This document shows positions 4,951 through 21,652 of a stretch of 46,539 nucleotides of DNA, piece by piece (within the stretch, counting starts at the first letter, position 1; the number at the start of each line of letters is the position of its first letter). The translations under genes and the position numbers were made by a program. This DNA comes from Candidatus Gastranaerophilales bacterium (GTDB lineage: Bacteria; Cyanobacteriota; Vampirovibrionia; Gastranaerophilales; Gastranaerophilaceae): positions 1 to 46,539 of the forward strand of contig CANQMP010000014.1 of the NCBI GenBank assembly GCA_947624975.1, given 5' to 3'. The notes beneath the pieces were generated by a model. The model saw only the letters and a list, made by a program, of their open reading frames with translations. It was not told the DNA's origin and searched no databases.

Positions 4951-4954
4951 ATTA

Positions 4955-4996
4955 GCGGGAGACGAGGCTCGAACTCGCGACATCCTCCTTGGCAAG
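4955..4996 (-). repeat. attL: displaced 3' end of tRNA-Gly
   Basis: 42 bases identical to 21582-21623 (extends to 43 with a leading A). It holds the anticodon-loop part, T-arm and 3' acceptor strand of tRNA-Gly but then reads into unrelated DNA (AATACATAAG), so it is not a functional tRNA. Confidence 0.9.
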
Positions 4997-5864: not shown

Positions 5865-7287
5865 GAATACAAGAACTCTAATTAACAGCATCAGTGTAGG
5901 TAAGAGGTTCTTAATGAATATCATAAAACATTACGGACAGGAAGATAATGAAGATATAATAAGTGAATTAGAATATATGGTTCGTTCAATAGGTAGCATA
6001 GAGAATGTTGATAACTTTTACTTACATAATAACTTAAGAGAGTTATTTGATAATGAAAAAGCGTACAGTGAGTTAGCTAAAAAATTGAACAGACATTTAG
6101 TTCTGTATGACGATTTTGGATATTGTTTCATGTATCATACGAGGAACACAATTAGAGAATTGGACAAACTTACTAATGGATTTAACAAGCCTGAGAGTAA
6201 AATGCACAATTACTTCAAACTATCTCCAAAAGAACCTGATGACTACTCAAATATTTCCGATACAAATACTAAGTTCGATTCGGTTATGTCTAAAATGTAT
6301 CTTAGCAAGTATAACAAGTACGTTGACGAAAATGACAACGGAGCTGGTGCATGGACATTCCAACTTTGTACTATGTACCTGATAATAGTAGATAAGCTAT
6401 ACAGACTCCTTCAACCTTATATAACAGACGTTGCTGATTTCTTCTTTCGTTGCGTAGTTGAGTTAAATCCTATCATTACAGGCTTTACCTATACAACCGA
6501 GATTATGTCTAAAATAAATGCGTTAGAGTTCATATATGAGTTAGCGCAACTGACTTCTATAGGTCGCCACTTGACCATTAAGAAGAATGAAGATAAATCC
6601 GAAATTACTTTTATTTTTACTACTTTGAATGGAACTTTTACTAACAACGAGCAACAGCATTACAGTCCTATCTTCCGTAAAGATAATAAGGGAAAAAGGA
6701 AAGTTCAAGTTCGTATAACTGGAAGCGGTAAGAGGCTATTTTTGAAAGTAGATATTATTGGTTTACAAAGTATTCAGGATTTAACAGAACAAGCGTGCAA
6801 GCCTTCCCTATTTTCTCTGAATACCGATGAATCTTATATAGAAGTAATCACATACAAAATATTAAGTACGATGCTTTCACATACTCAACAGTTTCAAAAA
6901 GACTTAGAAGCCAGTAACAAAAATGCACGTAAGATAGTTAATTCAGGTAAAGTCGAGAGTATTGCAAGTGAGGAAGACATAAGAAAGTTCTATGCTGAAG
7001 AACAGTTAAGAAAAAATGTTTTCAAGTCTTTACAACATGAGACACTGCTAAGACCTTTACTGTATTTACATAAGAAATTCCCTATAAAGAAATACAATGT
7101 TACCTATTATAGATATGTTGTTAGTGCGTTGAGCATGGGGGATAGGGAAATATCAGAAATGTTAAAGCCTATCGGGAGTAAGCAACAAGCTGTAATCAGA
7201 AAAATGATAAATGCTGTTAAGTCTCTTAACTATACTGGTATTCCAGCGCTTCATCACTTATATAAAGCTGTTACTTATAGGAGTTGA
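5845..7287 (+). CDS. Large hypothetical protein of the element's left operon
   Basis: 480 residues from the ATG at 5845, chosen over ATG 5836 because AAGGGA (5831-5836) then has an 8-base spacing. It overlaps the end of the previous gene by 20 bases. No domain recognised: mainly alpha-helical, with a mid-region of beta character (about residues 235-310, KSEITFIFTTLNG, KRKVQVRITGSGKRLFLKV) and a basic C-terminus (YKAVTYRS). It is translationally coupled to the next gene (AGGAG inside its last codons). Coupling to a possible replication protein suggests a role in element replication or mobilisation, which is inference. Confidence 0.7.
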   Translation: MRHLTFENTRTLINSISVGKRFLMNIIKHYGQEDNEDIISELEYMVRSIGSIENVDNFYLHNNLRELFDNEKAYSELAKKLNRHLVLYDDFGYCFMYHTRNTIRELDKLTNGFNKPESKMHNYFKLSPKEPDDYSNISDTNTKFDSVMSKMYLSKYNKYVDENDNGAGAWTFQLCTMYLIIVDKLYRLLQPYITDVADFFFRCVVELNPIITGFTYTTEIMSKINALEFIYELAQLTSIGRHLTIKKNEDKSEITFIFTTLNGTFTNNEQQHYSPIFRKDNKGKRKVQVRITGSGKRLFLKVDIIGLQSIQDLTEQACKPSLFSLNTDESYIEVITYKILSTMLSHTQQFQKDLEASNKNARKIVNSGKVESIASEEDIRKFYAEEQLRKNVFKSLQHETLLRPLLYLHKKFPIKKYNVTYYRYVVSALSMGDREISEMLKPIGSKQQAVIRKMINAVKSLNYTGIPALHHLYKAVTYRS

Positions 7288-7292
7288 ACGAC

Positions 7293-8495
7293 ATGTTGGG
7301 TGATACTATACTTGATAAATTACGTTTGAATTATGCGAAGAAAGAAGTTTCTCAGGAACTCAGGGAAACTTCAAGTACTCATTTGAAAGAACTGTTCCCA
7401 ACTGCAACCGTTAATAGTAAAGCTGGCAACATACAGAGTACCTTTAACCCTGCAAAATTAATTGATTCGGAACGTGGCAATGACAACGGACATAACTTAC
7501 AGATGATACCAGAAAATAGATTAGCTCACGCTCTACGGAGTAGCTTTCCTGAGCAGATAAGAGAGGGTGTTAGTGTTTCAATTATGCATATTGCGGAAGA
7601 TTATATAGTTAAAAACCCTGTTGAAGATTATATTGGAATGCTTTCTAACATTGATAACCCATGTATAACAGGAACAACGGTTGAATCTAACGTATCGATA
7701 AGTTTGTACTTGCACTTTGTTCAGGATTTTGAATCCGAAGAAATCCCACATTTCAGACTAAAGTTTTACGATAAAGGTGCAGAATACTGTAAAAGGCACA
7801 ACAGCCCTATTTGTAAGTTGTATGAACCTATAACGGAGAAAGAAATAAAACTACTGGGAGATTCTTATGACCCCGATAGTCATAGTATTGATATGAGTAA
7901 AGTTAATATGTTGAGGATTGAACTGGAGCTTGTACAAAAGGACAAGCTGACTCCTGTAATAAAACGTCTTGACAGTACTGCTGATAAATTTACCTTATCA
8001 ATGATGCTCATGGCATTAGATAATAACTCCTTATACAAAGTTTTAAGAGAAGTTTTTCATGAGAAGCTACGTAAATATGTATTTACAGCTTACGATACTC
8101 TTGACCATGTGGCAGAAGAAAATAATTTATCAAATATCAGTAAAAATGCTTACAAGTTACAACTTGAGGATGGTAATTCAAAGCACTTTACCAACTTAAT
8201 GACGGAATTAGGTTACAAAGATAGCGTAACTACAATGAACAGACTAGTTCGTAAAATCATACCTGATTCTAAACTCTACTCAGAGTTATACAGTGCGATA
8301 TTTTCCAATGACAATACGGTTATTACGGAAGAGACAACGGAGGAGTTAGTTGCAACAACTCCTGACAGTACTGCCGTTGATTCAACTGCAAGAAATATTG
8401 TATCAAAAGAAAATATTGCAAGTCATGACCTGAATGACTCTGTATTAAAGGGGTTCATCCTCGTATATGAAGTACTTATTTTTGACGATAGCTGA
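7293..8495 (+). CDS. Possible phage/plasmid replication initiation protein (rolling-circle Rep-like, tentative)
   Basis: 400 residues from the ATG at 7293, which has AGGAG (7279-7283) 9 bases upstream; a TTG at 7284 is less likely. The centre reads HFRLKFYDKGAEY, then about 55 residues later MLRIELELVQ. This Y-[DN]-K-G-x-E followed by [LV]-R-[IV]-E pattern is seen in gene II/X-like proteins of filamentous phage and in Rep_trans replication initiators. A clear HUH pair is not visible, so this is a hint and not proof. The stretch downstream (8496-8773) is rich in palindromes and would suit an origin. The C-terminal 60 residues are Thr/Ser-rich and look disordered. Confidence 0.55.
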   Translation: MLGDTILDKLRLNYAKKEVSQELRETSSTHLKELFPTATVNSKAGNIQSTFNPAKLIDSERGNDNGHNLQMIPENRLAHALRSSFPEQIREGVSVSIMHIAEDYIVKNPVEDYIGMLSNIDNPCITGTTVESNVSISLYLHFVQDFESEEIPHFRLKFYDKGAEYCKRHNSPICKLYEPITEKEIKLLGDSYDPDSHSIDMSKVNMLRIELELVQKDKLTPVIKRLDSTADKFTLSMMLMALDNNSLYKVLREVFHEKLRKYVFTAYDTLDHVAEENNLSNISKNAYKLQLEDGNSKHFTNLMTELGYKDSVTTMNRLVRKIIPDSKLYSELYSAIFSNDNTVITEETTEELVATTPDSTAVDSTARNIVSKENIASHDLNDSVLKGFILVYEVLIFDDS

Positions 8496-8773: not shown

Positions 8774-9334
8774 ATGAATTTCGTTGAGCCTATTAAAAAC
8801 AAAAAAGATATTGAACGTGTTGAAGAATATCTCACAAAGCACAGCAAAAGGAACAGGCTTATTTTTGCTTTTGGAATTAACACAGGGTTAAGGGTTTCAG
8901 ATATTCTCAGCTTAAATATTGAGGACGTTAAGGGAAAGAACCTTGTTGAAATTAAGGAAAAGAAAACAGGTAAATACAAACGATTTCCTTTAAATGGAAA
9001 GTTAAAAAAACTTATTAATGAATACCTGAAAGAACGAGAAAAGATTTATTCTATTCTTAAAGATGACCCGTTATTTGTAGGTAAGAAACATTGCAGATTG
9101 GATAGGTCACAGGTGTACAGATTTATCAACGAAGCCTGTAAAAACATAGGATTGAGAATAAATGTAGGTACCCATACCATGAGAAAATCCTTTGGATATC
9201 ACTTTTACAAAAAGTATAACGACTTGGCTTTATTACAAAAGATACTTAATCACTCATCACCTGCGATAACTCTTAGGTATATTGGCATTGAACAAGAAGA
9301 AATAGACTTGTCATACAACAATTTTGAACTTTAA
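8774..9334 (+). CDS. Short tyrosine recombinase 1 (catalytic domain only)
   Basis: 186 residues, about half the size of ordinary integrases because the N-terminal DNA-binding domain is missing. The catalytic set is present: Arg in TGLRVSD, Lys in KEKKTGK, His-x-x-Arg in HTMRKSFG, His in NHSSPAIT and Tyr in LRYIGI. GAGGTG precedes the ATG. It closely resembles recombinase 2 at 17631-18179 (both share NEACK, VGTHT, LNHSS, ITLRYIGI and end NFEL), and the two face inward around the cargo operon. Short recombinases of this type often act as DNA invertases, and a 21-bp inverted-repeat pair lies only 26 bases downstream. Most likely it flips that segment. Confidence 0.85.
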   Translation: MNFVEPIKNKKDIERVEEYLTKHSKRNRLIFAFGINTGLRVSDILSLNIEDVKGKNLVEIKEKKTGKYKRFPLNGKLKKLINEYLKEREKIYSILKDDPLFVGKKHCRLDRSQVYRFINEACKNIGLRINVGTHTMRKSFGYHFYKKYNDLALLQKILNHSSPAITLRYIGIEQEEIDLSYNNFEL

Positions 9335-9359
9335 AAGTTCAAACGCACCATATATCAAC

Positions 9360-9527
9360 ACTCCACAATACAAATTGTGGTGAAAATCTACCACAAAACT
9401 ATATTAACATAAAAATCTAAAATTGCAACGGTGTATAAGTTGAATAAAAACGGAATAACCGCACAGTGCCAACTACTGACAATGTGCGGTTATTCGTATT
9501 TATGCCCCACAATTTGTATTGTGGAGT
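9360..9527. promoter_or_regulatory. Candidate invertible promoter segment bounded by perfect 21-bp inverted repeats
   Basis: Positions 9360-9380 and 9507-9527 are exact reverse complements. Each arm holds its own dyad CCACAAT-ACAA-ATTGTGG with an asymmetric 4-base centre, the geometry of a tyrosine recombinase crossover site; the centres point in opposite directions, which predicts inversion. A further CCACAA half-site lies at about 9391-9396. The 126 bases between contain a 13-bp stem (GAATAACCGCACA at 9453-9465, TGTGCGGTTATTC at 9483-9495) that could stop rightward transcripts, and a leftward promoter-like pair TTGCAA-N16-TAATAT (9401-9428, minus strand) that would face the operon after inversion. 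The repeats are seen; the switch function is inferred. Confidence 0.7.
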
Positions 9528-9550: not shown

Positions 9551-9748
9551 ATGATTATGACTAATGAGGATAGCAATGAAATAAAGGTAATTTCAAATAG
9601 GGATGGAAATTTAGATAGCATCACTGATATTTATTTTGAACAACTATTAGATAAAAAACCACGAATGAGATTAATGAAAGACAGCAAAAATAAACCTGAA
9701 TCAGAGAAGAACGGTTCAAGGACTCACACTAAAAAAGACGAAAAATAG
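9551..9748 (+). CDS. Small hypothetical charged protein, first gene of the cargo operon
   Basis: 65 residues from the ATG at 9551 with AAAAGG upstream; a longer reading from 9431 would run through the inverted-repeat segment and is not credible. It is hydrophilic, with a Lys-rich C-terminus (KNKPESEKNGSRTHTKKDEK) that is probably disordered. No family recognised. It begins a run of same-strand genes up to 17448 with gaps or overlaps of a few bases. Confidence 0.55.
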   Translation: MIMTNEDSNEIKVISNRDGNLDSITDIYFEQLLDKKPRMRLMKDSKNKPESEKNGSRTHTKKDEK

Positions 9749-9780: not shown

Positions 9781-9993
9781 ATGACTAAACAAATTAAAAT
9801 CAGAATATTACCTGACGGACATATTGAATCAGAGACCGTAGGGATTAAAGGTAAATCTTGTCTTAACTACGTAAAAGAAGTTGAAAACTTAACAGGTGCA
9901 AAGACTGTAAAATCTGAATTTACAAAAGAATACAATGAAACAGAACAGCATCTTTACACTTCAAATGAGGAGTTTCAACAGAGTGGATATTAG
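9781..9993 (+). CDS. DUF2997 family protein
   Basis: 70 residues. The pattern K-I-x-I-L-P-D-G-x-I-x-x-E-x-x-G-I-K-G-K-S-C, then L-x-G-A-K and T-K-E-Y, matches the DUF2997 family, including its single conserved Cys (residue 27). DUF2997 genes are commonly found beside DUF1257 (Ycf35) and Ycf46-like AAA+ genes, as here. No activity is established; the conserved Cys next to a radical-SAM gene makes it a candidate substrate or carrier, which is inference. Its last codons overlap the start of the next gene. Confidence 0.85.
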   Translation: MTKQIKIRILPDGHIESETVGIKGKSCLNYVKEVENLTGAKTVKSEFTKEYNETEQHLYTSNEEFQQSGY

Positions 9994-10561
9994 GATAAAT
10001 TCATATATTCCTATAACAGATGTTGAAGGTGTTGGAACACGATTTGCTATTTGGGTTCAAGGGTGTTCAATTCGCTGTAAAGGTTGTGCAAACTTCCACA
10101 TGTGGGATTTTGATAGCGGTACCTCATATAATGTGAATGATTTTATTGATTTAATCAAATCCTATAAAGATAAAGTTGAGGGTATAACTTGGTTAGGTGG
10201 TGAGCCAATAGAACAAATAAAGGCTGTAACAGAGATAAGCAAGGCAGTTCAAGAATTTGGGCTGTCAGTTATTCTTTTTACGGGAAATGAATTAAAAGAC
10301 CTTGAAAACAATGCAGATTTTCAAGAGTTGATTAAATATGTGGATATTTTAATAGACGGCAGATATGAACAGAATAAAACCGATTATTCACGTGCTTGGG
10401 TTGGTTCAAGTAATCAGAATTATTATTTTTTAACCGACAGATACAACAAATCCGTTATATATGAAAACAAAAACAAAATTGAAATACGCATATCCCCTGA
10501 TAACGAAGTTATAATGACAGGCATGGGTGATTTTAAAGAAATAATGGAAGTAATGAGGTAA
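9983..10561 (+). CDS. Radical SAM activase-like protein (4Fe-4S single cluster, NrdG-like)
   Basis: 192 residues from the GTG at 9983, which has AGGAG 10 bases upstream; an ATG at 9965 is an alternative. The motif GCSIRCKGC gives the CX3CX2C cluster site, followed by WLGGEP (the GGE SAM-binding motif) and the NrdG/PflA-like layout VEGVGTRFAIWVQGC. Family members use SAM to make a radical on a partner protein (ribonucleotide reductase, pyruvate formate-lyase) or modify peptides. No ribonucleotide reductase lies nearby, so the partner is probably a neighbour in this operon: DUF2997, the AAA+ protein, or the proteins with the shared C-terminal tag. Confidence 0.85.
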   Translation: MDIRINSYIPITDVEGVGTRFAIWVQGCSIRCKGCANFHMWDFDSGTSYNVNDFIDLIKSYKDKVEGITWLGGEPIEQIKAVTEISKAVQEFGLSVILFTGNELKDLENNADFQELIKYVDILIDGRYEQNKTDYSRAWVGSSNQNYYFLTDRYNKSVIYENKNKIEIRISPDNEVIMTGMGDFKEIMEVMR

Positions 10562-10565
10562 TACT

Positions 10566-12266
10566 ATGGCAAAAAGTGAACAAATAGAAGGGATTAAAAA
10601 GACCGAACAATATCTAACCAACTTGTTTAAGGCACGTTTTTCATTCATATATATTCCTACTTGGGAAGAAATACGAATTGTAGAACTCATTACAAAAATC
10701 GCCAATAATACTTCGCAAATAAAGAGTAAGAGAGATGTTTTTATTTGGAGTTCGACTGAGGGAATGAAAAAGAACCTTGAAAAAGGGCAAGAAAGAGTCG
10801 GTAATATTGATAATCCGAATGAAGCACTGAAGTTTATAGATGATTATAATAAACCGGCAATATTAATTTTGAAAGACGTACATACTTTGTTTGGTGTACA
10901 AGGTAGAAATGCAGATTATAATTTTATTCGTAAAATACGTGATGTAGCAGGTTCACTTAAGGATGCCGAGTGTTCAAAAAATGTCGTGATTATTGCACCT
11001 TCATTAGTTTTACCAATCGAACTTCAAAAAGACATAACCGTAGTTGATTTTGATTTACCTACGTTAGAAGAAATAAAAGGGCTTTTAGACGTTATGATTG
11101 AACGAAATGAGGGTTCTGGCATAACTATTGACCTAACTGAAACCGATAAAGAACAGCTATGTAAAGCAGCACAGGGGTTGACCTTGCAAGAAGTAGAAAA
11201 TGCTTTTGCACGTGCTATGGTTACCAAAGGGCAACTAACTGTTAAGGAACTTGATATAATTCTTGAAGAAAAATGCCAAGTAATTAAAAAGACAGGAATT
11301 TTAGAATTTGTTAATACGAATTTAAACATTAACGATATTGGGGGCTTGGAAAATCTTAAAAAATGGCTTACCAAACGTAATAATTCATGGCTTGGTAAGG
11401 CACAAAAAGATTATAATTTACCTGCACCAAAAGGGGTTTTAATTACGGGTGTTGCGGGATGCGGAAAGTCAATGACTGCAAAGGCAATGAGTGCTATGTG
11501 GCAATTACCGCTGTTAAGACTTGATGTAGGAAAGATATTTTCGGGTTTAGTCGGAAGCAGTGAAGAAAATATGAGAAAAGCAATACAAACTGCTGAAGCG
11601 GTAGCACCTTCAATTCTTTGGATTGATGAAATTGAAAAAGGTTTTGGCGGAAGTTCTGGCGGTGAAATGGATGGCGGAACTACTACAAGAGTATTTGGAA
11701 CTTTCTTAACATGGATGAATGAAAAAACGAAACCTGTATTTGTAATTGCAACAGCTAATAATATTTCAAGATTACCTGCTGAAATGCTACGTAAGGGAAG
11801 ATTTGATGAAATATTTTTTGTTGATTTGCCAACAGTAAATGAACGAAAAATTATTTTTAAACTGCACCTTGAAAAGAGATTAAAAGGCAGTAAGTCAAAG
11901 GACTTTGAGATTACAGATGATTTATTGATTAAACTTGCAAAAGCTACTGAAGGATTTGGCGGTTCTGAAATTGAGCAAGTTGTAATATCTGCTTTATTTG
12001 AGGCATTTGCAGAAGACAGAACTCTTGACGAAAGTGATTTATTTAAAACCATTAATAACACGGTTCCTTTGTCAACAACGCAGTCAGAGCAGATTTTAGC
12101 AATAAGAGAATGGGCAAATGAAAGAGCTGTATCTGCTACGGCGCATGATGAAAGTTATAATTATGTACCCGAAGAAACCGAAGAAAGTACTAAAAAGAAA
12201 GCGAAAGCTAAAAAAGATACCGAAACCGTTAAACGTGCAAGGGGAGGAAGAACTATTGACTTTTAG
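10566..12266 (+). CDS. Ycf46-like AAA+ ATPase ending in a GRTIDF tag
   Basis: 566 residues. The N-terminal half resembles an inactive AAA+-like domain (residues 1-240), the second half is a complete AAA+ module: Walker A GVAGCGKS (about 298), Walker B ILWIDEIEKG (about 355), sensor-1 ATANN and the RKGRFDE arginine-finger region. This two-part layout is that of Ycf46 of cyanobacteria and plastids, a protein of unsettled function. A Lys-rich linker (about 535-558) leads to the C-terminus RGGRTIDF, a tag shared with three other proteins of the operon. The codons of GGR (GGAGGAAGA) also supply the Shine-Dalgarno of the next gene, whose TTG start lies inside this gene's last codons. Likely an ATP-driven remodeller of neighbour proteins. 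Confidence 0.9.
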   Translation: MAKSEQIEGIKKTEQYLTNLFKARFSFIYIPTWEEIRIVELITKIANNTSQIKSKRDVFIWSSTEGMKKNLEKGQERVGNIDNPNEALKFIDDYNKPAILILKDVHTLFGVQGRNADYNFIRKIRDVAGSLKDAECSKNVVIIAPSLVLPIELQKDITVVDFDLPTLEEIKGLLDVMIERNEGSGITIDLTETDKEQLCKAAQGLTLQEVENAFARAMVTKGQLTVKELDIILEEKCQVIKKTGILEFVNTNLNINDIGGLENLKKWLTKRNNSWLGKAQKDYNLPAPKGVLITGVAGCGKSMTAKAMSAMWQLPLLRLDVGKIFSGLVGSSEENMRKAIQTAEAVAPSILWIDEIEKGFGGSSGGEMDGGTTTRVFGTFLTWMNEKTKPVFVIATANNISRLPAEMLRKGRFDEIFFVDLPTVNERKIIFKLHLEKRLKGSKSKDFEITDDLLIKLAKATEGFGGSEIEQVVISALFEAFAEDRTLDESDLFKTINNTVPLSTTQSEQILAIREWANERAVSATAHDESYNYVPEETEESTKKKAKAKKDTETVKRARGGRTIDF

Positions 12267-13590
12267 TTATCAAAAAGCTATTAAAGATTATTTAAAAGTG
12301 ATTGAATTAGCCCCTAAAAAATCTTATGGATATTTGGGCAGAGCGGATTGTTATAAAGGACTTAAACAATATGACCTTGCATTAAAAGATTATTCAAAAG
12401 TGATTGAATTAGCCCCTAAAGAATCTTATGGATATTCTGGCAGAGCGGATTGTTATAAAAGACTTAAACAATACGACCTTGCCATAAAAGACTATTCAAA
12501 AATGATTGAATTAAAACATGAAGACTATTTTGGATATAAAGGCAGAGCGGATTGTTACGTAGAACTTAAACAATACGACCTTGCATTAAAAGATTATTCA
12601 AAAGTGATTGAATTAAACCCTAAATACGATTTGAATTACATTGAAAGAGCAAGATGTTACGTAGAACTTAAACAATACGACCTTGCATTAAAAGATTATT
12701 CAAAAGTGATTGAATTATCCCCTAAAGAATCTGATGGATATTCTTGCAGAGCGGATTGTTATAAAGAACTTAAACAATACGACCTTGCCATAAAAGACTA
12801 TTCAAAAATGATTGAATTAAAACATGAAGACTATTTTGGATATAAAGGCAGAGCGGATTGTTACGTAGAACTTAAACAATATGACCTTGCATTAAAAGAT
12901 TATTCAAAAGCGATTGAATTAGACCCTGAAAACTATTGGAATTATTTTAGCAGAGGTCAATGTTATTATAAACAGAATCAATATAAAGAAGCGATTGAAG
13001 ATTATACAAAAGCTATTGAAATTGATTCTAATCGGTGGTGTTCTTATCGAAACAGAGCGGATTGTTATAAAGAACTTAAGCAATATGACCTTGCCATAGA
13101 AGACTATACCAAAGCGATTGAATTAGAATCTGAAGACTATTTGGGATATAAAGGCAGAGCAAAATGTTACGAAGAACTCAAAAAACACGAACTTGCCCAA
13201 AAAGATTATAAAAAAGCACTGGAATTAAGCTTCGATACGGGAATGAAGTTATTTAAAGACGGGGATTTTGAAAATGCGATTGATTGTTTAAAGGTTGTTG
13301 CAGAACTTAACCCTGATGATAAAGAAATTACTTACGCACTTGAGTCCGCACAAAAAGGCAAGATTGATATTATGTTTTGCAGTAAAAAAGGGTTATTAAC
13401 ACTCGATTTTATCGATGAGCAAAAAGCTAACGATATCATAAAAGCAAGAAATGACGGTAAGATTTGGTATGGATATGAAGAATTTGCACAAGAATTTAAC
13501 TTCCAGCCTCATGAACAGTTAGATATTGAAGCAAAAATAGCTTTTCCGCTTAAACAAGGTGCTAAATTAGGCAGAACTATTGATTTTTAA
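12256..13590 (+). CDS. TPR-repeat protein with HhH-like C-terminal module and GRTIDF tag
   Basis: 444 residues from the TTG at 12256, preceded by GGGGAGG (12241-12247) at 8 bases and overlapping the AAA+ stop; the ATG at 12118 would overlap that gene by 149 bases. About ten 34-residue TPR units (consensus GRADCYxELKQYDLALKDYSKVIEL) fill residues 1-320, so it is a protein-binding scaffold. After two divergent repeats comes a module of about 75 residues (KIDIMFCSKKGLLTLDF, then ANDIIKARNDG, YGYEEFA) that recalls helix-hairpin-helix folds and is shared almost exactly with the protein at 14807. It ends KLGRTIDF. It is cytoplasmic, with no signal or membrane segment. Confidence 0.85.
   Translation: MTFSYQKAIKDYLKVIELAPKKSYGYLGRADCYKGLKQYDLALKDYSKVIELAPKESYGYSGRADCYKRLKQYDLAIKDYSKMIELKHEDYFGYKGRADCYVELKQYDLALKDYSKVIELNPKYDLNYIERARCYVELKQYDLALKDYSKVIELSPKESDGYSCRADCYKELKQYDLAIKDYSKMIELKHEDYFGYKGRADCYVELKQYDLALKDYSKAIELDPENYWNYFSRGQCYYKQNQYKEAIEDYTKAIEIDSNRWCSYRNRADCYKELKQYDLAIEDYTKAIELESEDYLGYKGRAKCYEELKKHELAQKDYKKALELSFDTGMKLFKDGDFENAIDCLKVVAELNPDDKEITYALESAQKGKIDIMFCSKKGLLTLDFIDEQKANDIIKARNDGKIWYGYEEFAQEFNFQPHEQLDIEAKIAFPLKQGAKLGRTIDF
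12277..13230 (+). repeat. Tandem 102-bp TPR-coding repeats
   Basis: Successive 102-bp units code for 34-residue TPRs and are very similar in DNA. A block of more than 130 bases near 12468-12605 is repeated almost exactly near 12772-12909. Such identity allows unit gain or loss by recombination, so repeat number may vary between strains. Confidence 0.8.
13358..13490 (+). repeat. 133-bp near-exact repeat in TPR gene 1 (partner 16491-16623)
   Basis: 132 of 133 bases match 16491-16623 (the one change is at 13461, G against T). Both copies encode the same part of the C-terminal module. Third-codon positions are also identical, pointing to recent duplication or gene conversion. Confidence 0.9.
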
Positions 13591-13649: not shown

Positions 13650-13946
13650 TTGAGTTTTAATTACATTGAATACAGAAAATTATATATAAAGATAATCGTG
13701 CTACTTGTTATTCTTATAGTACTAGTCGGGGGCGGATTTTCATTATTTTTGATTCATAAACTCAATTACACAATATGGACTTCAGTACTGTGTGCAGGAA
13801 TTACAACCGCGGTAATATTAAAAGACCTTGCGAGAGTATCCGCAATAATCGTTATTCGGTTTTCAGATGTTGAATATTCAGATGATATTCCCGAAGGTAA
13901 AGTTATCAAAATCAAAGACTACTTAAGAAAAAAAGGTAGGATATAA
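13650..13946 (+). CDS. Small membrane protein of the cargo operon
   Basis: 98 residues from a TTG at 13650 with AAGGAAGG just upstream (spacing short, about 4 bases). Two predicted membrane helices (about residues 13-36 and 41-62) precede a short cytoplasmic tail. It ends LRKKGRI, which looks like a cut-down form of the GR-x-[IL]-D tag of its neighbours. No family recognised. Its TAA overlaps the ATG of the mini-gene that follows. A membrane partner for the TPR and nuclease proteins is plausible. Confidence 0.6.
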   Translation: MSFNYIEYRKLYIKIIVLLVILIVLVGGGFSLFLIHKLNYTIWTSVLCAGITTAVILKDLARVSAIIVIRFSDVEYSDDIPEGKVIKIKDYLRKKGRI

Positions 13947-13992: not shown

Positions 13993-14805
13993 ATGTCAAT
14001 AAATATAGCGTTAATTCCTTTAGCATTGGTAATGAGAGTTGTAATGGGCGAAAAAGGTTTTGAAGATTTTGTAAGAAAAAATGAAGATGTTAGATATACT
14101 AAATTTAAAAGTTTTAAAGATATAAAAAGAATAGTACAAAGGTCTGGTTACGATTTTGTTGAACAGTGGGGAATGTTTAAAACTCACTTTAAAACAAAAG
14201 ATTATTTCATCTGGGAAATTCGAAGCGGGTATGTGTGTGCTGTGTTTTCGGTATATGACGCTGATTTGGATGTAAATAATTTTATTCGTACAATTGAAAA
14301 AACTATAGGGGCAAAATGTTTTTATAATTCAACTAAAGAAATAAATACAGAAGAAATAAATATAAATGCTCAGCGCAAAAAAGAAATGCAAGCACAAAGA
14401 GTTATTGAACCGCAAAAAGAAATTCAAGTAAAAAAAGAAATTCAACCGCCTATAGTTCAACAAGTTTTTCAAACAAAATTTACCGATAAAAACCTGTTAA
14501 TTAAAGCATTGGCTTCTATTGGGTTAAATTGCGTTGAAAAAAATAATGAAATTACTTGTAGCAGTGATAATTATACTTTGATATTCACTAATAAAAATAA
14601 CATGTATGAGTTTAGAATAAAAGGCGATGTTTCAAATAAGGAAGCATATCAAAAGTATAAAGATATTGATACAAGATATACTAAAGAGCTTCAGCAGGAA
14701 ATTATACAAAATGTTAAACAAAAAGTGGCAAAGAGTCCTACAATGCAGTTAGAGCAAGAAGAAGTGTTAGAGGATAACTCGGTATTACTGACAATAAGGG
14801 TGTAG
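13993..14805 (+). CDS. DUF1257 (Ycf35)-like protein with an extra N-terminal domain
   Basis: 270 residues. The last 110 residues follow the DUF1257 pattern: DKNLLIKALASIGLNC, a short beta region, YEFRIKGD, then a helix (YTKELQQEIIQNVKQKV) and a final strand NSVLLTIRV. DUF1257 genes usually sit with DUF2997 and Ycf46-like genes, as here, so the match is backed by context. The first 115 residues form a separate alpha/beta domain not recognised, joined by a Gln/Lys-rich linker (about 120-155). It lacks the GR-x-[IL]-D tag. AAAGAGG precedes the ATG; the next gene starts one base after the stop. Confidence 0.65.
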   Translation: MSINIALIPLALVMRVVMGEKGFEDFVRKNEDVRYTKFKSFKDIKRIVQRSGYDFVEQWGMFKTHFKTKDYFIWEIRSGYVCAVFSVYDADLDVNNFIRTIEKTIGAKCFYNSTKEINTEEININAQRKKEMQAQRVIEPQKEIQVKKEIQPPIVQQVFQTKFTDKNLLIKALASIGLNCVEKNNEITCSSDNYTLIFTNKNNMYEFRIKGDVSNKEAYQKYKDIDTRYTKELQQEIIQNVKQKVAKSPTMQLEQEEVLEDNSVLLTIRV

Positions 14806-14806
14806 A

Positions 14807-16723
14807 ATGGCAAAAAGTGACGAAAATATCGGTTGTATTGGTACTATTGTTATTATTGTAATATTATTGCCATTTGCCGAAATAATTAGAAAGATACTTT
14901 GTGGTGCCGCTGTGGTAATTTTAGTGGGTACCCTAATTTGGATTATTTGTAAATATCTGTCAAATCCGATTGATAAGTTGTACAATAAAGCTGACAAACT
15001 TTGCAAAAATGGTCAGTACATGGAAGGGATTGAAATATATAAGAAAGCTCATTCATTAGAATCTCTTCCCAATCCATATTTCTTTTATGCGGTCGGATTG
15101 GCATATTATGAGGCAGGTGATTATAAACAGGCTAAACAGTATTTGAAAAATGCTATATCAAAAGACGATAAATACTATCTTTGCCATAATCCAGAATTCT
15201 ATTATGCACTAGCAAGAACGTATTTACGGTTAAATAAATATAAAATTGGACTAACTTACATTGATAAACTTCTAGATAAACTCGACAAAAACAGCATAAA
15301 TTATGAGGAATGTAAAAAGTTTAAAGCCGAGTATCTTTTTAGACAATCTGTGATAGATAAAGATGCTTATAGATATCCCGAAGCAATACAAAATTTAGAA
15401 GAAGCGATTGACCTTATACCTGACAATCTTGATTTTAATAACCAGAGTGAAACCCTCCAAAAATTTGAAAATATGTATGAAGAACTCCAAAAATTATACA
15501 AAGAAGAAGAATTAAAAATTGAAGATTTATACAATCAAGCCGTTGCTTTAAAAGAAAATAAACAGTACAATCAAGCACTGGAAATTATAAATAATTGTAT
15601 TGCCCTTGCAAAAAAGCAAAATATATCCGACAATAAATTTGATACGTTGAAGGAAAGTATTTGTGTCATTATAAATAACATAAAACTTGCTGAAGAAAAA
15701 TATGATATTGCCATCAAGAAATCAAATGAAAAAAGATTTAATGATGCGATACAAAATTTAGAAGAAGCAGTTAAGTTAAATGCTAATAGTGAAAAATACA
15801 AAGATACACTGGAAATATTTAAACAAAAAAGAGTGAATGTACAGAAAAAAGCTGAGGAATTTTATTTAGAATCTGAAAACCATTTTAAAAATAAGGATTT
15901 TGATAAAGCATTATCGAGTATAAATAGTGCGATAGATTTGATAGAAGATAGCAGGTATTCTTCTTTAAAGGCAGATATAGAGAGAGAATATGCAAACATT
16001 ATCGCAGAAAAGGAAGCTGAAGAACTGTATATTAAAGCTAAAACCCTTTATGATAAGACTAAGACAAGCAATCCGAATTATAACGATATTGTTAATTTAC
16101 TGGAGAATGCAAATAAGAAGTGCTTAAAAAATGAATATCAAAACTTTTTGCAAAAAGTAAAATCAGAGAGAGATACTTTATGGGCTGAAGATTTTTACGA
16201 AAATGCTAAGAGCGATTTTAAAAATAAAAGATATGAATCTGCTTTGTCATCCATAAATGAAGCTATTAAACTGTTACCTAATAACAGTATGTATATTGAT
16301 TTAAAACAGAAAATAAATTGGGAAAAGCATGAATATGATACAGAGCAGGAGGCAAACCAATCCCACAAAGACGGTCTTCGAGCATATAATAACGGTGATT
16401 TTGTAGGTGCAATTAATAGCCTTACCCAAGCCTGTAATATAAAACCCGATAACGAGGAATGGCAGGGCTTATTAGAAAAAGTAAAGACACGCAAGATTGA
16501 TATTATGTTTTGCAGTAAAAAAGGGTTATTAACACTCGATTTTATCGATGAGCAAAAAGCTAACGATATCATAAAAGCAAGAAATGACGGTAATATTTGG
16601 TATGGATATGAAGAATTTGCACAGGCATTTAGTTTTCAACCACACCAATACCCAGACATTGAAGAAAAAATTTTATTCCCATTAAAACAAGGGAATAAAT
16701 ACGGCAGGAGGTTAGACGTATAA
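14807..16723 (+). CDS. Membrane-anchored TPR protein with shared C-terminal module and GRRLDV tag
   Basis: 638 residues. A hydrophobic N-terminus (about residues 9-50, one or two helices) anchors it. TPR or TPR-like helices follow (about 55-560), including FYENAKSDFKNKRYESALSS-type units. The last 75 residues repeat the module of the protein at 12256 (KIDIMFCSKKGLLTLDF onward), nearly base for base. It ends KYGRRLDV. The codons for GRR (GGCAGGAGG) also give the Shine-Dalgarno for the next gene, whose ATG overlaps the stop by one base. Likely the membrane-side scaffold partner of the soluble TPR protein. Confidence 0.85.
   Translation: MAKSDENIGCIGTIVIIVILLPFAEIIRKILCGAAVVILVGTLIWIICKYLSNPIDKLYNKADKLCKNGQYMEGIEIYKKAHSLESLPNPYFFYAVGLAYYEAGDYKQAKQYLKNAISKDDKYYLCHNPEFYYALARTYLRLNKYKIGLTYIDKLLDKLDKNSINYEECKKFKAEYLFRQSVIDKDAYRYPEAIQNLEEAIDLIPDNLDFNNQSETLQKFENMYEELQKLYKEEELKIEDLYNQAVALKENKQYNQALEIINNCIALAKKQNISDNKFDTLKESICVIINNIKLAEEKYDIAIKKSNEKRFNDAIQNLEEAVKLNANSEKYKDTLEIFKQKRVNVQKKAEEFYLESENHFKNKDFDKALSSINSAIDLIEDSRYSSLKADIEREYANIIAEKEAEELYIKAKTLYDKTKTSNPNYNDIVNLLENANKKCLKNEYQNFLQKVKSERDTLWAEDFYENAKSDFKNKRYESALSSINEAIKLLPNNSMYIDLKQKINWEKHEYDTEQEANQSHKDGLRAYNNGDFVGAINSLTQACNIKPDNEEWQGLLEKVKTRKIDIMFCSKKGLLTLDFIDEQKANDIIKARNDGNIWYGYEEFAQAFSFQPHQYPDIEEKILFPLKQGNKYGRRLDV
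16491..16623 (+). repeat. 133-bp near-exact repeat in TPR gene 2 (partner 13358-13490)
   Basis: Second copy of the shared module DNA. Identity stops sharply at both ends, with the flanking protein sequence only loosely similar, as expected for a conversion tract. Confidence 0.9.
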
Positions 16724-17448
16724 TGTCAAGACGTGGTGATTACAGGACTTATTACACAACAATTAAAGCCCTTATTGTATTTATTATTGCAGCTATTACG
16801 GTGTTGTTCAGGTTTTTAAAAGAAGTAAACCGATTGAAATTATGGGGTGAACTTGCTAAATCATTATTGATTTCATTTATAAGTTTAACAATCATTGCTG
16901 CAATAGCACAAGTTAGTGAAGAAGTTGCAGGGCTTTTAGTAATTGCAGGGCTGATTTATTTTTGTTGGTGGTGGCATAAAAAATTATCCTATACAGATAC
17001 ACGGCTTAATGCAGATATGTGGCAACAACGTCAATGGTGGTGGACTTTAGACGGTTGGCAATTTGAGCAGGAAGTAGCAAAAGTATTTAGAATAAATGGC
17101 TATAAAGCAACAGTAACAAAGGGGAGTGGCGATGGTGGAGTTGATATTATCCTTAAGCAGGGCGACTATACCGCTATAGTCCAATGCAAGCACTATCAAA
17201 ATCCTGTACCGCCTGAACCAGTGAGAGCATTGTGGGGTTGTAAAGACGATTTTGGCGCAGATGAAGTTATCATGGTTGCTTCATCGGGATTAACCGAAGC
17301 AAGTGCTAAATTTGTACAAAACAAGCCTAATTATAAGGTGCTGAACCTTGACGATATAATCCGAATGAGTCAGCAAGTTAGTACCTTTTCATCACAAGCT
17401 GATTATGTTACAAGTGATAGGAAATACGGTAGAAAGTTAGATATATAG
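16723..17448 (+). CDS. Membrane-anchored Mrr-type restriction endonuclease-like protein with GRKLDI tag
   Basis: 241 residues. Residues about 12-90 contain three predicted membrane helices. Residues about 105-210 form an Mrr-like PD-(D/E)xK nuclease domain: WQFEQEVAKVF, then GSGDGGVDIIL with the catalytic Asp, then AIVQCKHY with the Q-x-K pair. The catalytic residues are intact. Such membrane-tethered Mrr domains are common in defence systems, where they cut incoming or modified DNA. It is the last gene of the operon and ends KYGRKLDI, so the tag is not explained by a following ribosome binding site. Effector role is inference. Confidence 0.85.
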   Translation: MSRRGDYRTYYTTIKALIVFIIAAITVLFRFLKEVNRLKLWGELAKSLLISFISLTIIAAIAQVSEEVAGLLVIAGLIYFCWWWHKKLSYTDTRLNADMWQQRQWWWTLDGWQFEQEVAKVFRINGYKATVTKGSGDGGVDIILKQGDYTAIVQCKHYQNPVPPEPVRALWGCKDDFGADEVIMVASSGLTEASAKFVQNKPNYKVLNLDDIIRMSQQVSTFSSQADYVTSDRKYGRKLDI

Positions 17449-17630: not shown

Positions 17631-18179
17631 CTATAACTCAAAATTTTGCAATGTGCTTTCAACATTATCTTGTGTAATTCCGATATATCTTAAAGTTATT
17701 GAAGGGCTTGAATGATTGAGCAAGTATTGAAGTATAGCAACATCATGAAATGTTTGATAATGGTGATAACCGAAAGTTTTTCTTAATGTGTGTGTACCTA
17801 CAGAATCATTAATGCCAGCTTTTTTGCAAGCCTCATTTATTATCATATATGCCATAACTCTTGTAATTGGTCTGTTTTTTCCGTTACGGCTTTTGAATAG
17901 GTATTCGTTGTCGGATTTTCCCTTGGTATAATCATCAATCATTGATTGAAGATTACCAAGCAAAGGAAACCTTTTTATTTTGCCTGTTTTCTGTTCTTTA
18001 ATCTCAACATGGCTTTTGCCCTTTACATCAATAACTTTCAGTTTAAGTAAATCCGATATTCTCAAACCTATATTTATTCCCATTGTAAACAGCAATAAAT
18101 CCCTTGTTCCGTTACATCTTAGGTATGATTTAATTTCTTCAATTTTGTTCTTTTCTCTGATTGGTTGAACGTGCTTCAT
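17631..18179 (-). CDS. Short tyrosine recombinase 2 (catalytic domain only)
   Basis: 182 residues, same architecture as recombinase 1 at 8774: Arg in IGLRISD, Lys in KEQKTGK, HTLRKTFG, NHSSPSIT and Tyr in LRYIGI; both end NFEL. GAGGTGA precedes the ATG. It points toward the cargo operon from the right, convergent with it. Its upstream region (18205-18345) has four copies of a TGTTAA word in direct and inverted order, unlike the CCACAA sites near recombinase 1, so the two enzymes may have different targets. The pair may mark the ends of a nested cassette. Confidence 0.85.
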   Translation of the reverse strand: MKHVQPIREKNKIEEIKSYLRCNGTRDLLLFTMGINIGLRISDLLKLKVIDVKGKSHVEIKEQKTGKIKRFPLLGNLQSMIDDYTKGKSDNEYLFKSRNGKNRPITRVMAYMIINEACKKAGINDSVGTHTLRKTFGYHHYQTFHDVAILQYLLNHSSPSITLRYIGITQDNVESTLQNFEL

Positions 18180-18204
18180 TTTATCACCTCATTTCCTTAT
18201 GTTT

Positions 18205-18345
18205 TGTTAAGTTGAATTTACGCTTGTAAATCATTGTGTTAAGTTGAGTTCTTGTTTTTCTGAGAGCTTATGCCCTTAATCCTTTGACAGTCTATATTTA
18301 AGTCGTTTTTATCGAATTTAACAAAATACCTATTGTGTTAAATTC
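18205..18345. repeat. Cluster of TGTTAA-type repeats upstream of recombinase 2
   Basis: Direct repeats TGTTAAGTTGA at 18205-18215 and 18237-18247, and an inverted pair GAATTTAACA (18314-18323) / TGTTAAATTC (18336-18345). A short stem ATTTAC/GTAAAT lies between the direct copies. These are candidate recombinase or operator sites. Confidence 0.55.
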
Positions 18346-18355
18346 AGGAGAAAAT

Positions 18356-18790: not shown

Positions 18791-19081
18791 CTACACAACC
18801 TCAAATTTCAGATAACTAGTGACCTTAAGAAGTGCCTTATATATCTCACTGTATCTGGTTTTAAGTGCCTTTGTATCGACATTGTTTCTAGTGATTTCTT
18901 GAAGTTTGAATGTAAACATACCAGCTTTAAGTTCAAATACATTCGCTTTTGTCATAACTTCTTTAACTTCGGCTACCTTTTCGTCCCTAAGTTCTTTCAA
19001 CTCTGCGATTTTGCTGTCAAGAGCTTTAATAACTCTTGCATTGTCTTCTAAATTGATGTTTGTTGCAATTACTGTTGTCAT
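18791..19081 (-). CDS. Small phage/element accessory protein
   Basis: 96 residues, AAAGGAG before the ATG. The first 50 residues form a charged coiled-coil-like helix (DSKIAELKELRDEKVAEVKE), and the end (NVDTKALKTRYSEIYKALLK) resembles a C-terminal pattern seen in small phage early proteins. I cannot name a family. It has a recognisable promoter (19117-19145) and probably drives 18356-18754 as well. Confidence 0.6.
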   Translation of the reverse strand: MTTVIATNINLEDNARVIKALDSKIAELKELRDEKVAEVKEVMTKANVFELKAGMFTFKLQEITRNNVDTKALKTRYSEIYKALLKVTSYLKFEVV

Positions 19082-19145: not shown

Positions 19146-19232
19146 CAAATTTTGCCATTGGTCAACACAAAAATTTACAAAATAGTGACACCTCTTATAA
19201 ATAGTGGTATTGTAAAAAAGGGGTATAAAATT

Positions 19233-19523
19233 ATGGCAAAGATATATTCAGTTAATACAAAGCACTTGCAGGATAAACTAAGGGCTAAAATAAAAGAGCT
19301 AATGAAAGAGAAGGGACTAGATGCTCAGGCACTTGCTGATAAGTTAAAAGATAATTATAAAGGTTACTCTGATTCACGGACAAATGTGCTTAATAAACTT
19401 AAAAGAGCATCGATAAAATACACGGAAGCAGTGCAAATATTTGACGTGCTTGGTTATGAGTTAAAATTGGTTCCCAAAAGTACAATAGAGACCCCAAAAT
19501 ATGAAGATTCTAAACAAAAATAA
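19233..19523 (+). CDS. Small HTH-type protein
   Basis: 96 residues from the ATG at 19233, with AAAAGGGG upstream; the longer reading from 19152 lacks a good start. The pattern LRAKIKELMKEKGLDAQALADKLKDNYKGYSDSR...VLNKLKR is that of a lambda-repressor-like helix-turn-helix. It sits alone between the accessory genes and the repressor, in the regulatory part of the element. Probably a DNA-binding regulator; no closer assignment possible. Confidence 0.6.
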   Translation: MAKIYSVNTKHLQDKLRAKIKELMKEKGLDAQALADKLKDNYKGYSDSRTNVLNKLKRASIKYTEAVQIFDVLGYELKLVPKSTIETPKYEDSKQK

Positions 19524-20163: not shown

Positions 20164-20418
20164 ATGCATTTAAAAGAATACATAACCGATAAGGTGTCGG
20201 AAAGGACAGAACCTCAAGATTTAATGTCTATCAGAGAACTCAGCCTGAAACATGGTTACAATTATGACTATCTCTACAAACATTCAATACTAAGAGGTAA
20301 CATTACCGTGTATTTTAGAGGGATTTGGAAACTTAGTGAGAGTGAAGTCCTAGAGTTTAGCCATAACCTAGCAGAAAAAAGGTTGCAGAGAATAAGAGTT
20401 GGTAAAGGAGGTGAATGA
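20164..20418 (+). CDS. Excisionase-like small HTH protein
   Basis: 84 residues from the ATG at 20164 with AAAGGAG upstream (a reading from 20107 would start inside the operator). The segment LMSIRELSLKHGYNYDYLYK followed by GIWKLSESEVLEFSHNL resembles MerR-like winged helix excisionases. It overlaps or touches the integrase gene (stop 20416-20418), the standard xis-int order. Expected to direct excision of the element. Confidence 0.65.
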   Translation: MHLKEYITDKVSERTEPQDLMSIRELSLKHGYNYDYLYKHSILRGNITVYFRGIWKLSESEVLEFSHNLAEKRLQRIRVGKGGE

Positions 20419-20420
20419 TA

Positions 20421-21515
20421 ATGGCTGGCTCAAGTAAAAAAAAACATGAAAGTAAAGGTAAAATAGTCTCATACTATACAGCTACTTGGTACGATATGTA
20501 TGGTAAGCAACATACAGGGGGACATTTTAAAAATAGAGCTGATGCAATAAAGTACGGTTCAGAGCAAGAAAATCGTCAAACCAGTGTAGCAAATATTACC
20601 TTTGAACATATCTTTAAACCATACATGGAACATGTATTGCCAAAGCTTTCTCATACTACATATAAAACATATAATCTGTACATTGAAAATCACCTTAAGA
20701 AGTTATTTACAGTAAAATATGAAAAAATAAGTTCAGTAGATTTGCAGAAGTTTATTGATGAGATTGAACAATCTCGTACACCATTTGTAGCTCAGTTATG
20801 CTTAAAAATTGCGAAAGCCGTTTGTAATTATGCCCTCAAACATAAACTTATAAACGAAAATAAGTTTCTAGCCGTAAATAATGTTATAGTCCCGTCTCCG
20901 GAAAAACACCACTTGACCGAGACTCAAGAAAAAAAAGTATTAAATGCTTGCCAAAAACTATATCCAAGGTATTACGTTTTATTGGCTACGCTTATGGGAA
21001 CTGGCATGCGTATTGGAGAACTCATTGCTCTTGAAGTTACTGATATTAATTACGAAAACAAGAGTATAAAGGTCAATAAACAATTTACCAAAGGGAAGCT
21101 CAAGGACGGGACAAAAAACCCTGCTAGAAAAATTCAGGTTAAAGAACGCGAAGTATATATAACGGACGACATTGTTGCTCTTTTATTGGAATACACTAAC
21201 TCTTTACCCAAGGGTACAAAATTATTATTTCCAAACAAAGTTAATGGGTATTTAAACGATAAAAATCTTAGGATACGAGTGTGGAAACCACTACTAGATT
21301 TTGTTGATATAACTGATAGGGTACGACTTCACGATTTAAGGGGTTCGTATGCGGATATTGCTCTCCAGCACGGAGCTAGCATTAAATTCATACAAAATCA
21401 ACTGGGACATTCAAAAGCTGAAACTACTTTGAACATATACATGAAAAATAATGACGATGCTATAAAGAAAGCACTTGAACAAATGAAAGGAGTATTCAAA
21501 AATGAAGAAATATGA
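20421..21515 (+). CDS. int: Tyrosine integrase of the element
   Basis: 364 residues from the ATG at 20421, which has AGGAGG 9 bases upstream (ATG 20415 is too close). Three parts: an arm-type DNA-binding domain (about 10-45, YYTATWYDMYGKQHTGGHF), a core-binding helical domain (about 55-165) and the catalytic domain with Arg in GTGMRIGEL, HDLRGSYAD, LGHSKAETT and Tyr in LNIYMK. It is of the Tn916/phage integrase class that uses tRNA genes as attB. It lies 66 bases from the tRNA-Gly it uses. Confidence 0.92.
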   Translation: MAGSSKKKHESKGKIVSYYTATWYDMYGKQHTGGHFKNRADAIKYGSEQENRQTSVANITFEHIFKPYMEHVLPKLSHTTYKTYNLYIENHLKKLFTVKYEKISSVDLQKFIDEIEQSRTPFVAQLCLKIAKAVCNYALKHKLINENKFLAVNNVIVPSPEKHHLTETQEKKVLNACQKLYPRYYVLLATLMGTGMRIGELIALEVTDINYENKSIKVNKQFTKGKLKDGTKNPARKIQVKEREVYITDDIVALLLEYTNSLPKGTKLLFPNKVNGYLNDKNLRIRVWKPLLDFVDITDRVRLHDLRGSYADIALQHGASIKFIQNQLGHSKAETTLNIYMKNNDDAIKKALEQMKGVFKNEEI

Positions 21516-21576: not shown

Positions 21577-21581
21577 ATGGA

Positions 21582-21623
21582 GCGGGAGACGAGGCTCGAA
21601 CTCGCGACATCCTCCTTGGCAAG
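21582..21623 (-). repeat. attR core, inside the functional tRNA-Gly
   Basis: Identical to 4955-4996 over 42 bases. The element's copy restores the 3' part of the tRNA, so the host keeps a working gene. Confidence 0.9.
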
Positions 21624-21652
21624 GAGGCATTCTACCACTGAATTACCCCCGC
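21582..21652 (-). tRNA. tRNA-Gly (GCC)
   Basis: 71 nt on the minus strand with acceptor GCGGGGG / CTCCCGC, anticodon loop TTGCCAA in stem CCTCC/GGAGG, and T-arm GAGTTCGAGCC. The 3' 42 bases derive from the integrated element. No encoded CCA. Confidence 0.95.

Follow-up and report, generated by a model that had tools for sequence, protein, structure and literature searches.

The window analysed here, a stretch of 46,539 nucleotides from a Candidatus Gastranaerophilales bacterium, is contig C14 of a 1.9-Mb assembly (G000) that is 99.95% complete. It contains an integrative mobile element of ~16.6 kb, which carries a full-length integrase and is bounded by exact direct repeats (att), the right-hand one within a tRNA gene. 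Inside this element, a short tyrosine recombinase gene is followed by a segment of 168 bp enclosed by inverted repeats, and this segment heads the cargo operon (Table 1).

Table 1. Features of the recombinase, the segment, the cargo operon and the carrying element, with positions in the window.
Feature	Position	Strand	Evidence or remark
att repeat, 43 bp, left end of element	4954-4996	.
Short tyrosine recombinase, 186 aa, catalytic domain only, predicted invertase	8774-9334	+	PF00589 3e-28
Left inverted repeat, candidate crossover site	9360-9380	+	CCACAA-TACAAA-TTGTGG core; exact reverse complement of 9507-9527
Interior of putative invertible segment, present state OFF	9381-9506	.	alignment to OFF/ON relatives
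Predicted promoter module: ATACACC motif, -35 TTGCAA (9428-9423), extended -10 TGTTAATAT (9409-9401)	9398-9439	-	model from relatives
Strong hairpin, probable two-way insulator/terminator	9453-9495	.	folding; same place in relatives
Right inverted repeat, candidate crossover site	9507-9527	-	exact reverse complement of 9360-9380
First cargo ORF, 65 aa, no assigned function	9551-9748	+
DUF2997 protein	9781-9993	+	PF11211 2e-13
Radical SAM activase-like protein (NrdG/PflA type)	9935-10561	+	PF13353 2e-35; TIGR02491 7e-34, below cut-off
AAA ATPase	10566-12266	+	PF00004 3e-29
TPR protein (start uncertain)	12274-13590	+
Small ORF, 98 aa, no assigned function	13650-13946	+
Conserved 270-aa protein	13993-14805	+	homologues 28-91% identical in same operon elsewhere
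TPR protein	14807-16723	+
Mrr-type restriction endonuclease domain protein	16723-17448	+	PF04471 2e-23
Full-length integrase of carrying element	20415-21515	+	PF00589 + N-terminal SAM-like domain; phrog_1 3e-55
att repeat, 43 bp, right end of element	21581-21623	.	inside tRNA-Gly(gcc) 21578-21652 (-)

The start codon of the radical SAM reading frame is uncertain, and the frame overlaps that of the DUF2997 protein. An earlier reading of this DNA from its letters alone (the sequence-only reading) had spoken of a Ycf46/DUF1257/DUF2997 operon; DUF2997 and an AAA ATPase are confirmed, while the 270-aa protein that had been called DUF1257 matched no Pfam family, and a search of five sequences, comprising the window protein and homologues, gave no hit to DUF1257 with a threshold as lax as E <= 5. 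PADLOC found no complete known anti-phage defence system, but generic AAA (IetA) and Mrr-domain similarities. The recombinase precedes the same operon in eight more loci (L087-L089, L091, L093, L178, L180 and L181), in one of which, L178, the recombinase gene is split.

The short recombinase and its inverted repeats

The recombinase is encoded by an intact reading frame in which PF00589 is the sole domain (model positions 6-168 of 172), in line with the earlier description of a catalytic-domain-only enzyme adjoining the segment. Its R40, H134, R137, H160 and Y169 align with the catalytic domains of XerH and XerA, and K64 was assigned by inspection, which completes the R-K-H-R-H-Y set of a tyrosine recombinase. 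The protein is a relative, not a member, of the FimB/FimE-type 'tyrosine-type DNA invertase' models (PRK09870/PRK09871; 5e-15 and 55 bits, where the cut-off is 222), and it falls in phrog_216, an integrase-type phage family. The nearest matches come from metagenome-assembled genomes of Candidatus Gastranaerophilales, which are non-photosynthetic Cyanobacteria, and the recombinase family is present in 197 of the 288 genomes of the taxonomic family.

The two repeats are exactly reverse-complementary over 21 nt and enclose 126 bp, just as the sequence-only reading had described them, and complementarity continues at 84% out to 32 nt. This is far above shuffle expectation: the window holds two exact inverted repeats of at least 15 nt with arms 50-400 nt apart, against a mean of 0.08 in 100 dinucleotide shuffles, while repeats of at least 17 nt at the same arm spacing were absent from all 100. 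Moreover, within 450 nt after the recombinase gene the local inverted repeat scores 21, compared with a best of 11 in 60 shuffles of that stretch. A search that tolerated up to 3 mismatches found no second copy of the site in the rest of the 1.9-Mb assembly. The segment adjoins both neighbours as claimed earlier, with the gaps counted as 25 nt from the recombinase stop to the repeat and 23 nt from the repeat to the ATG at 9551, instead of 26 and 24. Each repeat is by itself a dyad that folds at -8.1 kcal/mol.

The sole other exact inverted repeat of at least 15 nt at such spacing (215-229 and 362-376, GTCATTGCGAGCGAA) resembles a dispersed repeat. In addition, extra copies of a half-site-like motif lie outside the left site (GCACCAT, 9341-9350) and beside the -35 box (ACGGTGTAT, 9427-9440), at positions that are kept in relatives, and the recombinase might through them also bind at its own promoter.

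Flipped segments in relatives and the present state of the window

Homologous recombinases at 40% identity or more were collected from 106 distinct loci, 95 of which have at least 400 bp on either side. An inverted repeat with a score of at least 15 occurs downstream of the recombinase in 28 of these 95 loci and upstream in one; by this score test, roughly two in three homologous recombinases have no strong repeat downstream. An all-against-all comparison of the loci yielded natural flipped pairs, of which three were mapped to base level. Between L180 and L181, a 150-bp block is 99.3% identical once inverted, with collinear flanks, and the half-sites are exchanged around a common core, TATCTAT/ATAGATA, as predicted by strand exchange in a short overlap. 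This segment directly precedes a DUF2997-radical SAM-AAA operon, which is the same operon as in the window. L062 and L063 differ by the reversal of 176 bp (98.3% identity) ahead of a methyltransferase operon, and L017 and L018 by the reversal of 169 bp (100% identity) ahead of a glycan-type gene. At a greater distance (68-74% identity), L059 (= L087) is reversed relative to L058, L060, L069 and L071, all of which carry the window-type operon or its AAA-TPR-Mrr version. The comparison of related genomes for both orientations, which the sequence-only reading had proposed, thus found both of them in orthologous loci, including a pair with the same operon. No flipped copy of the window's own locus was found, its segment being present only in G000 among the 33 genomes of the genus, and the exact 18-bp site occurs in none of the IMG/VR contigs. 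As the core of the window (TACAAA, a near-perfect dyad) is unlike the TATCTAT of its close relatives, the activity of the window copy is one that we infer.

Two invertible segments stand in tandem behind a single recombinase in L180 (9545-8650) and L181 (2382-3280), one ahead of a small secreted-type protein and the second ahead of the DUF2997 operon, and orientation differs between the genomes for the second only. Contigs end just downstream of the recombinase in 13 cases and just upstream in 4 (hand count, sign test p 0.049), and L007 and L064, perhaps from one genome, terminate exactly in the core, TATCTA; these breaks are suggestive of mixed populations, too weakly to be relied on.

The leftward promoter-like pair that had been noticed at 9401-9428 was found again with a position-weight model built from relatives, the window excluded, which ranks 9439-9398 (-) first of ~93,000 window positions; with the misaligned relative L091 included, the same site comes second with a weaker score. 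The support from region-only shuffles is modest (5 of 500 reach the score of the window), and the promoter, whose -35 and -10 boxes each match 4 of 6 bases, is passed over by a generic sigma-70 scan. The -10 box lies in the same register as TATTAT/TATAAT of the relatives, and CACC and the -10 box are spaced 27 nt apart (hand count) in the window as well as in L087 and L088. Copies in the ON state run in the order recombinase, site, hairpin, ATGCACC-like motif, extended -10 promoter (TGTGTTATTAT, TGCTATCAT and similar), site and gene. The interior of the segment aligns in the same orientation with that of the OFF relatives L086 (z 8.4) and L088 (z 5.0), and is inverted relative to that of the ON relative L087 (z 6.5), and the sequenced state is therefore read as OFF, as had been supposed from the direction of the promoter. 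After computed inversion the -10 box (TAATAT) occupies 9481-9486 and is 64 bp away from the first cargo ATG, so that the predicted internal promoter would face the operon in one state only. Moreover, L177 and L179 possess the operon with no recombinase; there the promoter faces the operon, and a relict right-hand site alone is left. These loci are a natural 'locked ON' control, and they also show that the promoter goes with the operon.

The central hairpin has a folding energy of -22.5 kcal/mol (z -5.4), with a strong fold on both strands, and relatives have a hairpin of different sequence in the equivalent place. The sequence-only reading had placed it toward the operon in the present orientation; its existence and position stand, whereas a block specific to the OFF state does not, because the hairpin separates recombinase and operon whichever way the segment points. 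It is probably a two-way terminator that insulates the operon.

A candidate invertible promoter and its alternatives

Taken together, the flipped orthologous segments, the promoter conserved in register and the recombinase-less copies frozen ON support the reading of 9360-9527 as an invertible promoter (inverton) for the cargo operon, served by the adjacent short recombinase, to which we assign a probability of about 0.88 and which had already been put forward from the letters of the window. In the OFF state, the segment promoter would fire leftward into the recombinase gene, and the operon would have no local promoter of its own. The recombinase would exchange strands in the short asymmetric centres (TACAAA/TTTGTA in the window, TATCTAT/ATAGATA in the relatives) and flip the segment, and the operon would then be ON, while the internal hairpin might shield it in both states against read-through. 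Flipping of the window copy by the recombinase, promoter activity and switching of expression are all three predictions from sequence comparison.

The alternative that deserves most attention is a fossil switch, in which the family inverts while the recombinase or the sites are dead here, with the operon locked OFF or using another promoter. Broken or missing recombinases are known in the family (the split gene of L178; L177 and L179), and the core of the window is unlike that of close relatives; however, the recombinase frame is intact with its catalytic residues kept, the repeats are perfect over a length that drift would erode, and the promoter and its spacing are retained, which makes a dead copy unlikely. 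It is considerably less probable that the recombinase works for the mobile element, in excision, integration or dimer resolution, with the repeats as binding or resolution sites and no switch at all. The position of the module inside an element with att repeats at tRNA-Gly and the phrog_216 assignment would suit such a service, yet the element has a separate full-length integrase beside its att site, the repeats are inverted rather than direct, exactly this segment is inverted among relatives, and homologues of the same layout precede glycan-type genes. The folding of each repeat and the strength of the central hairpin could also be taken to mean RNA or operator elements, such as an attenuator, a terminator or repressor dyads, with no recombination involved; we give this hardly any credence, as it leaves unexplained both the adjacent recombinase and the segments inverted between relatives.

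The invertible-promoter reading can be set beside known systems. The fimS switch of E. coli, which controls pili, spans ~314 bp with 9-bp repeats and depends on two recombinases and host factors. The window resembles it in having a short tyrosine invertase (~190-200 aa in FimB/FimE, to whose models the window protein is related below the cut-off) near a promoter segment, and differs from it in segment and repeat length, in the number of recombinases, in the host factors and in the target. In Clostridioides difficile, several switches are served in trans by the tyrosine recombinase RecV. These switches share with the window ~21-bp inverted repeats around a segment of 150-200 bp; in contrast, the site occurs once in the genome here, and the family members examined have local sites of their own. 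Invertible promoters are well known in gut Bacteroidota, Akkermansia and others from PhaseFinder surveys, where they have been linked to restriction and mobilisation genes (PMC11892184, PMC8748976). Those invertons likewise have a promoter within ~20-bp inverted repeats, an invertase gene nearby, surface, restriction or mobile-element cargo and both states among genomes (here, among relatives), while the present case differs in lineage (Gastranaerophilales relatives), repeat motif and cargo, and in that recombinase and switch would form the fixed head of a mobile element with exchangeable cargo. Phase-variable restriction-modification by DNA inversion, represented by hsdS shuffling and by inverton group 145, which is also linked to mobilisation genes (PMC11892184), has restriction-type cargo tied to inversion as well; it rearranges coding sequence, whereas the window would turn a promoter.

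No inverton report for Gastranaerophilales, Melainabacteria or Vampirovibrionia was found among the best 15 of 104 matches in the open-licence literature, and the present analysis would add a widespread switch family for this cyanobacterial lineage. It would also offer a clear case of a mobile element equipped with an on/off switch for the genes it carries, restriction systems and an uncharacterised AAA/radical SAM/Mrr operon included. As the flipped natural pairs narrow the crossover down to ~7 bp, the mechanism is directly testable, and the operon is a candidate that has to be brought into the ON state ahead of any test of its function.

Probable cargo exchange and further recombinases

The head formed by recombinase and switch precedes other cargo elsewhere, of restriction-modification, surface and glycan kinds among others: Eco57I-type methyltransferases with a helicase-like protein (L096, L104), HsdM/HsdS (L100), a type IIG-like enzyme (L099), a 2185-aa repeat-rich protein (L097), AlgX-like and sugar acetyltransferase genes (L101, L103) and radical SAM genes (L094, L105). 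These loci were compared by layout, and a flipped partner was sought for part of them. Backbone genes of the element (18791-19081, 19152-19523 and 7284-8495) recur with other cargo in L012, L094 and L096. The shared layout, with element ends determined for the window alone, suggests that the cargo slot of the mobile element has a built-in switch. We lean towards the broader view that integrative elements of Gastranaerophilales keep a recombinase and an invertible promoter at a fixed place and exchange the cargo behind them, namely restriction-modification, AAA/Mrr operons and radical SAM genes; if so, new and possibly costly or defensive cargo would be randomly on or off from the start.

G000 contains 11 matches to the recombinase family at E <= 1e-20, the window included, with further recombinases on contigs C2, C6, C23, C24, C26, C29, C31 and C45 (L042-L049). 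Three of them (L044, L046 and L048) are each followed by an inverted repeat, 19-25 nt long, which makes several independent switches in one genome likely. Near the end of the cargo lies another short tyrosine recombinase (17631-18179, -) that shares ~50% identity with the first; half-sites of the TTAAGTT/GAATTTAACA type recur upstream of it (18200-18347). L090 and L093 have close homologues in the corresponding position, and a 99% identical one is found in L105. A recombinase 58% identical to the first was also met in L015, a record labelled Helicobacter sp. 13S00401-1, followed by an imperfect downstream inverted repeat and a nucleotidyltransferase-like gene, which would point either to transfer between phyla or to a mislabelled contig.
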